Shown here in pieces: positions 57,971 to 61,014 of a stretch of 64,000 nucleotides of DNA. Positions within the stretch are counted from its first letter, which is position 1; each line of letters begins with the position of its first letter. The stretch is from Lawsonia intracellularis PHE/MN1-00 (GTDB lineage Bacteria > Desulfobacterota > Desulfovibrionia > Desulfovibrionales > Desulfovibrionaceae): positions 310,001 to 374,000 of the forward strand of contig NC_008011.1 of assembly GCF_000055945.1 (NCBI RefSeq), read 5' to 3'. Made by a program: the position numbers and the translations under genes. The notes below the pieces were generated by a model that saw only the letters and a program-made list of their open reading frames with translations, did no database searches and was not told where the DNA came from.

Positions 57971-58636
57971 ATGAACAATTTTATTACTTATAGCCAACCT
58001 ACTCTCCCAGCTGGATTTGTAGATGTACAAAAAGTAATACAAAGCATATTAGTTGATCTAAAATATGTAGGAAGCGATAATTTTGTAGGAAGACCCATTC
58101 CAGGGTATAATACAAATCGGGTCATATTATCAAAAGAAGCTACTGTTGCTCTTGCAAATGTACAAACTGAATTGCAACAATTTGGTCTTAGTTTATTAAT
58201 TTATGATGCTTATCGACCAACACAAGCTGTTGACGCATTTATTAACTGGTCAAATGAACCAGAAGATAAAAAAATAAAACAAAAGTATTATCCAATACTT
58301 ACAAAAAAAGAAATATTTGATCAGCAATATATTATGAAAAAATCTTCTCACTCACGTGGCAGTACTGTAGATTTAACTATTGTTTCATTTAATAATACAA
58401 CAAATCAAAATAACATGTTTTATACTCCTCTTGATATGGGTGGTATTTTTGATTTTTTCGGTAAAGAGTCACATCCTGACTTCCAAAATATTACCCCCCA
58501 ACAAAAAGCAAATAGGCTATTTTTACGTACAATTATGACAAAATACGGCTTCACTCCAATTTCTAATGAATGGTGGCATTTCACCTTAGCTAATGAACCT
58601 TTCCCAGAAACATATTTCAATTTCCCTATAGAATAA
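57971..58636 (+). CDS. D-alanyl-D-alanine dipeptidase (VanX/DdpX family)
   Basis: A zinc enzyme that splits D-Ala-D-Ala dipeptides. Length is 221 residues, similar to VanX (about 202). Motifs: LLIYDAYRPTQAV, with the substrate-site Arg (R82); the zinc ligands H127 and D134 in SSHSRGSTVDLT; and E200 and H203 in SNEWWHFTL. All catalytic residues are present. There is no signal peptide, so it acts in the cytoplasm. It stands alone with no vanA, vanH or transport genes beside it, so peptidoglycan dipeptide recycling (as for DdpX) is more likely than glycopeptide resistance. Confidence 0.9.
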   Translation: MNNFITYSQPTLPAGFVDVQKVIQSILVDLKYVGSDNFVGRPIPGYNTNRVILSKEATVALANVQTELQQFGLSLLIYDAYRPTQAVDAFINWSNEPEDKKIKQKYYPILTKKEIFDQQYIMKKSSHSRGSTVDLTIVSFNNTTNQNNMFYTPLDMGGIFDFFGKESHPDFQNITPQQKANRLFLRTIMTKYGFTPISNEWWHFTLANEPFPETYFNFPIE

Positions 58637-59207
58637 AAATTCTATAATTAATGTGAATGATAGTATTGCATTATAATGATCAGTAATTAATTATTACTAA
58701 TTCTCTACTATAAATACTTATTTTTCTTTTTTTGAGAACTAACTTCTTATAAAAAAAGCAAATTTATCCTTAGTAAGATAAAATAATTACTCAAAACTCA
58801 AAAAAATCTGGTTGAGTTGTTTAAACAACTCACGTAGAATTCTATTTCTTAACTATGTTATTGGTATAGAGTAAAATTAAAAAATAAATAGGCTTATAAG
58901 TTAGTTGTAACTTTTTATCTTATTTGGAAAAAGAGCAAAATCCCCTTCAAATACATTTTATATCTAGTAACTAAATCGGGATGTAATGTAAAAATAATAC
59001 TAATAATGTTAACTAATCAAAAAAATAGTAATATAATAAGTAAAAAAGTTGGCTAAGTTAAAATGCATTATATGCAATTAATAATAAAACTAAAACTTCC
59101 TCTCTCTAGTACGCTAGAGGCAGGTGTTATGGCTGAGGTAGCTGCTCTTCATATCATATGCAGTTAGTTTATACCTACACCTATTAATTAAAGAAGGCTG
59201 TTATCTT
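58637..59207 (+). other. 571-bp gap before the selenoprotein gene
   Basis: Contains a 20-bp perfect palindrome TGAGTTGTTTAAACAACTCA (58813-58832), possibly a terminator of the VanX-like gene, and near 59104 a hairpin CTCTAG-TACG-CTAGAG, followed by a GC-richer stretch (about 59100-59165). That last stretch may be a leader of the selenoprotein gene or a remnant. A 12-codon frame starting at 59129 is too short to support. No RNA gene was recognised. Confidence 0.45.
58813..58832. terminator. 20-bp palindrome downstream of the VanX-like gene
   Basis: A perfect inverted repeat TGAGTTGTTTAAACAACTCA without spacer, about 175 bp after the stop. No U-run follows. It may be a weak hairpin or an operator-like site. 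Confidence 0.35.
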
Positions 59208-59534
59208 ATGATTAATGTAACAGAAAATGCTAGAAAAGAGCTTGAAACTTACTTTACAAATAAAGAAAAAAGTCCTCTTCGGATATATCTTGCTTCAGGT
59301 GGCTGAAGCGGACCACGATTAGCATTGGCTCTGGATGAGCCAAATCAACAAACTGATACAATACTTGAAGAGGGCGATTTAACGTTTTGTATTGATAACG
59401 AACTACTTTCTTCTGTGAAATCTGTAACCGTTGATATGAATTATATGGGATTTAATATTGAACCAGAAATTCCTCTCAATGTAGAAAATGGCGGAGGTGG
59501 TTGTGGTAGTTGCTCTTCAGGTGGATGTGGTTAA
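59208..59534 (+). CDS. HesB/IscA-like selenoprotein (in-frame TGA read as Sec)
   Basis: An A-type Fe-S scaffold-like protein of 108 residues. From ATG 59208 the frame reads MINVTENARKELETYFTN, then LRIYLASGG-TGA-SGPRLALALDEP; the TGA (59304-59306) is codon 33. It stands where IscA/HesB proteins have their first conserved Cys (GGGCSGF type), so Sec replaces Cys. The frame continues without stops to a Cys-rich end (GGGGCGSCSSGGCG), which supplies the other cluster cysteines. A hairpin resembling a bacterial SECIS follows the TGA. Related HesB-like selenoproteins are known in sulfate-reducer relatives. An AAGAAGG ribosome site lies 10 bases before the ATG. A caller without Sec would report only the C-terminal 69 residues. 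Confidence 0.88.
59325..59343 (+). promoter_or_regulatory. Candidate bacterial SECIS hairpin
   Basis: The stem TTGGCTC/GAGCCAA (7 bp) with loop TGGAT lies 18 bases after the in-frame TGA; the loop begins about 25 bases after it. The loop contains GG, and the distance falls within the range expected for bacterial SECIS elements, which bind SelB. It is inside the coding region, as usual in bacteria. Confidence 0.65.
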
Positions 59535-59544
59535 CTTATAATAA

Positions 59545-59584
59545 CAAGCTAGGATTACACTTAAACTATGTAATTCCTAGCTTG
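59545..59584. terminator. Terminator between the selenoprotein gene and fumarase beta
   Basis: A 14-bp stem with one bulged base (CAAGCTAGGATTAC with GTAATTCCTAGCTTG) lies between convergent genes and overlaps the last codons of the fumarase beta gene. It probably ends both transcripts. Confidence 0.7.
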
Positions 59585-60143
59585 CTATATGTTTAAGATA
59601 CTCTCTAGGTCCTTCAACATAAAAATCTTTTCCTTCTGTATCCCCTACCACAATAACTGGAAAATCTTTTACTTCCATAGCTGCTAATGCTTCTGGTCCT
59701 AACTCTGGATAAGCAATAACAGTGTACTTTATAATATGTTGTGAAATTAAAGCACCAGCTCCAGCAATAGCTGCAAAATATACTGCTCCATAAGTTTTTA
59801 ACTCATTTAAAACTTTTGCAGACCGTTTACCTTTACCAATCATACCTGTAAGACCTTGCTGTAACATTGCTGGTGTATAACTATCCATCCTTCCACCTGT
59901 TGTTGGACCAGCTGAACCAATAATATGCCCTGGTTTAGCTGGAGATGGACCAACATAGTACAAAATTTGGTTTTCAAGTGAAACAGGAAGTTTTTCTCCT
60001 TTTTGTAGCGTTTCTATCATACGCTTATGTGCAGCATCTCTTGCAGTATATATAGTTCCTGAAATCAAAACATGCTCACCTATATGTAAAGAACGTGTAA
60101 CTTCTTTAATTAATGGAGTAGTTATAGTCCGATATTCTGCCAT
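59577..60143 (-). CDS. Class I fumarate hydratase, beta subunit
   Basis: The C-terminal part of a two-gene class I (Fe-S) fumarase or related dehydratase, 188 residues. Motifs: LHIGEHVLISGTIYTARDAAHKRM, GPSPAKPGHIIGSAGPTTGGRMDSYTP and AAIAGAGALIS, which form the substrate-side swivelling domain. It lies 25 bp downstream of the alpha gene in one operon. Fumarase hydrates fumarate to malate; a tartrate dehydratase is a less likely alternative, because family splits are not resolvable by eye. Confidence 0.9.
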   Translation of the reverse strand: MAEYRTITTPLIKEVTRSLHIGEHVLISGTIYTARDAAHKRMIETLQKGEKLPVSLENQILYYVGPSPAKPGHIIGSAGPTTGGRMDSYTPAMLQQGLTGMIGKGKRSAKVLNELKTYGAVYFAAIAGAGALISQHIIKYTVIAYPELGPEALAAMEVKDFPVIVVGDTEGKDFYVEGPREYLKHIAS

Positions 60144-60168
60144 TCATAACTCCTTAACAGCAAGTTTA

Positions 60169-61014
60169 TTATAACCAGACCTCTGTATGACGAGCTGAAT
60201 GACAATTAAGGTTTACAGCTACAGGCAATGAGGCAATATGTGTGGCAAAAAATTCAATATTTACTTTACAGGCTGTCATTCTTCCACCAAAACCAAGTGG
60301 ACCAAGCCCCATCTTATTAATCTCTTGTAATAATTCATCTTCAAGAGCTGCATATTGTGGATTTTTATTATGAGTGTCAATATCACGTAATGCAGCTTTT
60401 TTAGCACAGATTGCTGCTATCTCCAGATCTCCACCAATCCCAATACCTACTACTAGTGGTGGACAAGCACTTGCTCCTCCCTCCATTACTGTTTCAAGTA
60501 CAAACCGCTTTACACCATCTATACCGTCAGCAGGGATTAGCATTTTTAGTTTACTTTTATTTTCAGCACCAGCACCTTTTACTCCAAACCTTATCATTAA
60601 TGTATCGCCAGGAACAAGACGAGTATGTATAATAGCTGGTGTATTATCTCCTGTATTTTTACGTTCAAATAATGGGTCAGCTACAACAGATTTTCGTAAA
60701 TATCCAGAAATATACCCTTTTCTAACACCTTTGTTAATAGCTTCTTCAAAATCTCCTCCAGTAATAACAACGTCTTGACCAATCTCTGTAAAAATAACAG
60801 CAAGCCCAGTATCTTGACAAAGAGGCATCATTTCTCTTTCTGCAAGTTCTGCATTATTAACAAGATGTTGTAGTATACAACTTTCTAGTGGTGATGACTC
60901 ATTATGAATACCATTTTTAAACTCTGTCAAAACTGGGTGAGGTAATTTACAACAAGCATCTATTGCTAATTGAGCAACAGTATCTTCTATTACTGATACA
61001 TGAATTTCCTTCAT
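60169..61014 (-). CDS. Class I fumarate hydratase, alpha subunit
   Basis: The Fe-S subunit, 281 residues. The three [4Fe-4S] ligands are visible: C66 in MPLCQDTGLAVIF, C184 in GGASACPPLVVG and C249 in RMTACKVNIEFF. Other family blocks are TGDNTPAIIHTRLVPGD and LGPLGFGGRM. The cluster is oxygen-sensitive, in keeping with a low-oxygen lifestyle. It is first in the operon with the beta gene, 25 bp apart. The promoter should lie in the 264-bp gap upstream. Confidence 0.93.
   Translation of the reverse strand: MKEIHVSVIEDTVAQLAIDACCKLPHPVLTEFKNGIHNESSPLESCILQHLVNNAELAEREMMPLCQDTGLAVIFTEIGQDVVITGGDFEEAINKGVRKGYISGYLRKSVVADPLFERKNTGDNTPAIIHTRLVPGDTLMIRFGVKGAGAENKSKLKMLIPADGIDGVKRFVLETVMEGGASACPPLVVGIGIGGDLEIAAICAKKAALRDIDTHNKNPQYAALEDELLQEINKMGLGPLGFGGRMTACKVNIEFFATHIASLPVAVNLNCHSARHTEVWL

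Follow-up and report, generated by a model that had tools for sequence, protein, structure and literature searches.

The intracellular pig-gut bacterium Lawsonia intracellularis carries a gene that, as judged from sequence, belongs as an ordinary member to the HesB-like selenoproteins, a known family, while selD, whose product supplies the selenium donor, was not found in its complete genome with TIGR00476, PF00586, and the SelD protein of a relative as queries. On balance, we favour the explanation that this NF038090-type gene descends from Desulfovibrionaceae ancestors and that its UGA would still be read as Sec, with selenophosphate drawn from the host cytosol or supplied by an unrecognised enzyme. 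The gene lies in a stretch of 64,000 nt, the window, to whose first letter the following positions refer:

59191..59197, + strand: AAGAAGG, as we infer from reading the sequence a likely ribosome-binding site, 10 nt 5' of the ATG
59208..59534 including the TAA, + strand: HesB-like selenoprotein gene, hesB, of 108 residues with Sec codon 33 (translation with TGA as U; NF038090; PF01521)
59304..59306, + strand: UGA in frame (Sec codon 33), where A-type proteins have their first conserved Cys (translation, alignment)
59325..59343, + strand: bacterial SECIS hairpin UUGGCUC-UGGAU-GAGCCAA (fold; conservation in relatives; frozen codons)
59484..59531, + strand: flexible tail rich in Gly, Ser and Cys, with C99, C102 and C107, which replaces the classical A-type CGC end (alignment; pLDDT)

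Translation confirms that the frame is open from the ATG at 59208 to the TAA at 59534 apart from a single TGA at codon 33, as claimed in an earlier note on this DNA. With the TGA taken as Sec, the product reads MINVTENARKELETYFTNKEKSPLRIYLASGG-U-SGPRLALALDEPNQQTDTILEEGDLTFCIDNELLSSVKSVTVDMNYMGFNIEPEIPLNVENGGGGCGSCSSGGCG, and around codon 33 LASGG-U-SGPRLALALDEP. It matches NF038090 (IscA_HesB_Se) with 107.2 bits, above the cut-off of 85 and over profile positions 1-101 of 101, and the Pfam model PF01521 with 32.1 bits (cut-off 26.3). The second mark by which NF038090 defines its members, a TGA-encoded Sec in GG-U-xGP followed 3' by a SECIS, is found as well. Other A-type profiles were not reached: TIGR01911 (HesB_rel_seleno), which describes seleno-HesB proteins of other lineages with the same Sec site and is a different subfamily, gives 36.7 bits, under its cut-off of 66.35, and the equivalog profiles of IscA, SufA, and ErpA, which have cut-offs of 117-150, give 27, 25, and 33 bits.

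The UGA aligns with the first conserved Cys, the GGC-SG of PDB entries 1nwb and 2apn, which bears out the position at the first conserved A-type Cys proposed for it earlier. The AlphaFold model of the product has a pLDDT of 82, falling below 50 in a disordered tail (residues 93-108); its best PDB matches by Foldseek are IscA, SufA, and AQ_1857 (IscA 1x0g, E 6e-7), and together they assign the product an A-type fold. The fold is that of IscA, SufA, and ErpA (PDB 1x0g, 1r94, 2d2a; Foldseek E 6e-7 to 8e-5), with which the GG[C/U]xG loop is shared, whereas their CGC tail is missing in the Lawsonia protein and its scores lie far under their cut-offs. In the alignment, the C...CGC set of A-type carriers is not seen and the tail cysteines form C-x2-C-x4-C instead; C61 is a further Cys 3' of the UGA. 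The "12-Cys/Gly-rich end" of the earlier note thus holds as an in-frame, Cys-bearing tail rich in Gly and Ser, but not as twelve cysteines: three conserved Cys are present in the tail, and about 11-12 is reached by summing Cys and Gly. Owing to the A-type fold, the selenol in the metal-binding loop, and the three tail cysteines, selenol and tail Cys probably form a redox or an iron/Fe-S ligand site. The portion of PMC13188914 consulted here gives no tested function for HesB-like selenoproteins.

The SECIS-like hairpin was found at precisely the position given before, 59325-59343. It folds with an MFE of -10.9 to -11.4 kcal/mol, and 4 of 200 shuffles of a 29-nt piece, or 12 of 200 of a 42-nt piece, fold as well. 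The bacterial SECIS model, as laid out in the part of PMC13188914 used here, allows a loop of 3-9 nt, a stem of 4-16 bp, a G in the first two loop positions, a distance of 16-37 nt from the UGA, and an MFE of at most -7.5 kcal/mol. All of these limits are kept by the Lawsonia hairpin, with its 5-nt loop UGGAU, its 7-bp stem, and G at loop position 2; the distance from UGA to loop is 25 nt. The inner five stem pairs are standard in all 11 aligned sequences, among which no compensatory changes were seen. Since the stem hardly varies, it carries no covariation information, and the pair counts speak neither for nor against it.

The codons are more telling. At codons +8 to +11, the Sec copies use GCT (17/17), CTG (17/17), GAT (15/17), and GAG (17/17), whereas the Cys copies encode the same residues by GCT in 8 of 24, GAT in 4 of 24, and GAG in none of nine cases. 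Lawsonia retains TTG GCT CTG GAT GAG in the hairpin region despite a genome of 33% GC, in which CTG makes up 2.4% and TTG 5.5% of Leu codons, AGC 5.2% of Ser codons, and GGC 8.6% of Gly codons. This retention of rare codons in an AT-rich genome indicates that the hairpin has been selected through AT drift. Judged by these codon counts, selection at the hairpin acts on the RNA and not on the protein alone.

For comparison, 80 loci from named genomes (L086-L165) were collected, titled as Desulfovibrionaceae-type or as broader deltaproteobacterial or proteobacterial bins. A TGA stands at the same hesB codon in 63 of them, within the motif U-[S/A/R/G]-GP, and each of these 63 has the hairpin core TGGCTCTGGA(T/C)GAG at the same distance. 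Because 63 named relatives share the TGA site together with an identical SECIS core, the combination is, by this comparison, far beyond chance, and the sequences mark the UGA of hesB as a Sec codon by descent. Of 22 columns 3' of the UGA that are conserved in the relatives, 21 are retained in Lawsonia. The reading as a HesB/IscA-like selenoprotein is thereby upheld, both by the NF038090 score and by the 63 relatives. The family as such is no surprise here: its expected occurrence in relatives of Lawsonia is confirmed by the same loci, and HesB-like selenoproteins were reported from Desulfovibrio in 2006 (PMC1794560). With these Desulfovibrio-type proteins (NF038090), the Lawsonia protein shares the A-type fold, the UxGP motif, Sec at the first Cys site, the identical SECIS core, and the Cys-rich tail, at 50-63% identity.

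A further HesB-like copy lacking the TGA, mostly with Cys and in some cases without it, lies near the gene in 54 of the 63 Sec-HesB loci. Such adjoining copies in most relatives would suit an origin of the Lawsonia TGA by point mutation of a Cys codon, which would make the frame a pseudogene or a product of chance. We regard this as hardly credible: the TGA is common to 63 relatives, in which the SECIS codons are frozen, and the frame 3' of the UGA is conserved, and on these grounds the point-mutation origin was rejected. In difference to the relatives, which mostly keep the nearby TGA-less copy, Lawsonia has the Sec copy alone and selD was not found; a search with the hesB protein gave a single A-type protein, the Sec copy, in Lawsonia and two or three in most relatives. 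Going by gene names read from sequence, the HesB pair is adjoined by pyrR in 22 loci and has a YedE-like selenium-associated membrane protein nearby in seven.

In the window, hesB is directly preceded by a gene for a VanX/DdpX-like D-Ala-D-Ala dipeptidase (57971-58636, + strand; PF01427 with 164 bits), whose product scores 219 bits on the VanX model, under the cut-off of 320. A hairpin, CCUCUCUCUAGUACGCUAGAGGCAGG, lies about 85 nt 5' of hesB (59099-59124, + strand; -11.2 kcal/mol, matched by 3 of 200 shuffles) and is a possible leader structure. Convergent with hesB, at 59577-61014 on the - strand, are the two genes for the beta and alpha parts of a Class I fumarate hydratase, the alpha part being named from sequence. 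Class I fumarate hydratase is an Fe-S enzyme.

The Lawsonia genome comprises 1,719,014 bp in four contigs, including a closed chromosome of 1,457,619 bp, and encodes the decoding parts of the Sec trait:

162928-164301: selA, 616 bits, full length, intact
1099365-1101275: selB, 395 bits, full length, intact
236618-236707: tRNA-Sec with UCA anticodon, 80.5 bits against a gathering threshold of 47

The acceptor stem of tRNA-Sec is completely paired, and the winged-helix RNA-binding domains 2 and 3 of SelB are intact. Compared with 3w1h, SelA retains SGDK, the motif of the PLP lysine, as well as NPxxRALRIDK, an active-site stretch rich in arginine; its identity to relatives is 50-58%, compared with 34-44% for the neighbouring folC. 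Measured against the bacterial Sec-decoding trait (selA, selB, selC, selD), Lawsonia has intact selA, selB, and tRNA-Sec, while selD was not found. The search for sel genes that the earlier note had proposed therefore has a split outcome: selA, selB, and tRNA-Sec (selC) were recovered and selD was not, in a closed genome. The lack of selB and selC, named there as fatal to its reading, is not observed, as selB and tRNA-Sec are present and look intact. Its suggestion that Lawsonia keeps Sec insertion is thus shown for the decoding components and not for the activation of selenium.

Two other families that may contain Sec gave no further selenoprotein. The Molybdop_Fe4S4 domain was not found in the Lawsonia genome, so that it has no ordinary formate dehydrogenase, and the NiFe hydrogenase is of the Cys type without in-frame stop. 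With the A-type, formate dehydrogenase, and NiFe hydrogenase families examined, we use as a working statement that HesB is the sole selenoprotein of Lawsonia. By the same mechanical rule, twenty open-TGA-open frames occur elsewhere in the window; a search with eight pieces of such frames gave no match to a seleno-family.

A genome search with TIGR00476, whose cut-off is 125, matched only ThiL, with 41.8 bits. PF00586 finds four places in Lawsonia, namely ThiL, HypE, PurM (by ORF), and a frame of 992 aa, whose length fits PurL. With the SelD of a relative as query and a limit of E 10, HypE was the sole match (E 0.006), and no remnant of selD was seen. Of the 199 genomes of the family, 170 give a selD match above the cut-off in the same profile search, and genuine SelDs, including those with in-frame TGA, score about 300-360 bits; among the matches listed, most of these selD genes have their own in-frame TGA. 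Among 14 control genomes the cut-off was passed in two, a number that would fit E. coli and M. jannaschii. Weak matches can be lost in the genome search, as HypE went unlisted although it scores 38.8 bits with hmmscan against that profile.

Three draft genomes (G056, G071, G201) likewise combine selA and tRNA-Sec with no selD match above the cut-off. Gaps in the drafts may be the cause there, but the closed Lawsonia chromosome is not so explained. In L074 (G159, 527-2610), rplQ is followed in order by a LysR-type gene, selD, and tig. This LysR gene may belong to the selenium-linked LysR family of PMC5322559. No scar of selD was seen at rplQ in Lawsonia, where a mannose-1-phosphate guanylyltransferase-like gene follows; since the rplQ-lysR-selD-tig neighbourhood is not kept, no scar could be obtained there. 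The selD neighbours in L075 and L076, which are selD-bearing and of the same genus, differ from those in L074, and comparing them with the Lawsonia loci examined gave rplQ as the sole match. For the sister species G091, a 1.5 Mb draft from the same genus, neither selA nor selD was recovered, no match was typical of tRNA-Sec, and the best match to the Lawsonia HesB protein is weak (E 5.6e-17). The Sec trait was apparently lost in this species, going by its draft sequence, and as selA, tRNA-Sec, and selD are missing together, the Lawsonia lineage is known to shed the trait.

In the reading that we prefer, SerRS would charge tRNA-Sec with serine, SelA would turn seryl-tRNA-Sec into Sec-tRNA-Sec, and SelB would bind the hairpin at 59325-59343 and bring Sec to the UGA at 59304, yielding a protein of 108 residues with an A-type fold; selenophosphate would be taken from the host cytosol or made by an enzyme not yet recognised. 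Such a source is preferred because the rest of the pathway shows no decay: selA, selB, tRNA-Sec, SECIS, and the post-UGA columns are all intact, which argues for continued use, and we infer that the UGA would be read as Sec today. We know of no bacterial transport of selenophosphate and of no alternative selenium-activating enzyme. In favour of the preferred reading, L. intracellularis multiplies free in the host cytoplasm, and its ATP/ADP translocase imports host ATP (PMC3463550).

It is also possible, though less likely, that the trait is dying, selD having been deleted cleanly and so recently that selA, selB, tRNA-Sec, and hesB have not yet decayed; no Sec-tRNA would then be made, and the UGA would be a stop that leaves a useless peptide of 32 residues. 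The failure of all three selD queries, the loss of the whole trait in the close relative G091 (1.5 Mb), and the genome reduction typical of intracellular life suit such a course, while the undecayed SECIS, post-UGA columns, SelA, SelB, and tRNA-Sec, and the missing selD remnant even at E up to 10, speak against it. Strains cannot date the loss, since the published ones hardly differ (N343 and PHE/MN1-00 by 24 SNPs; PMC3587925). Between Sec still made with selenophosphate from another source and a recent deletion of selD, our preference for the former is slight. That the pathway is complete and ordinary, with a selD so divergent, fragmented, or placed outside the assembly that it was missed, is improbable: the imperfect listing of weak matches such as HypE and the three drafts with the same pattern would allow for it, but genuine SelDs of the family score about 300-360 bits and were found in 170 of 199 genomes, the AIRS model (PF00586) gives just four other family members, and the chromosome is closed. 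Still less probable, and in our view very much so, is that SelA makes Cys-tRNA-Sec from a thiophosphate-like donor and SelB inserts Cys. This would need SelA, SelB, tRNA-Sec, and SECIS without selenium, in agreement with the gene content, and the eukaryotic SepSecS route can use thiophosphate; however, thiophosphate would itself be made by SelD, and we know of no thiophosphate-based Cys route via SelA and SelB in bacteria.

Among open-access papers, none was found that joins L. intracellularis and selenocysteine, or Lawsonia and SelD, and those containing Lawsonia and selenoprotein have, by title, other subjects; subscription journals and supplementary tables lay outside the scope of this search. 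Some source may well list the gene already, and the gene may stand annotated as a fragment in this veterinary pathogen. The selenoprotein is ordinary for this bacterial family, and the missing selD is the point of interest. In the portion of PMC4561486 drawn on here, SPS/SelD is described as conserved in all selenoprotein-encoding genomes, and a few exceptions to the co-occurrence of SelD and markers are mentioned. SelD is treated as a universal marker of selenium use, and Lawsonia combines a closed genome and an otherwise intact pathway with a selD that was not found. We tentatively propose that L. intracellularis may make a selenoprotein without a selenophosphate synthetase of its own, using selenophosphate or other activated selenium that the host cytosol or a so far unrecognised enzyme would provide, and may keep SelA, SelB, and tRNA-Sec for maybe one small protein. 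Should Sec still be made, activated selenium would be stolen from the animal cell or generated by a so far unknown enzyme; should it not, the 21st amino acid would have been caught at the first step of its loss.
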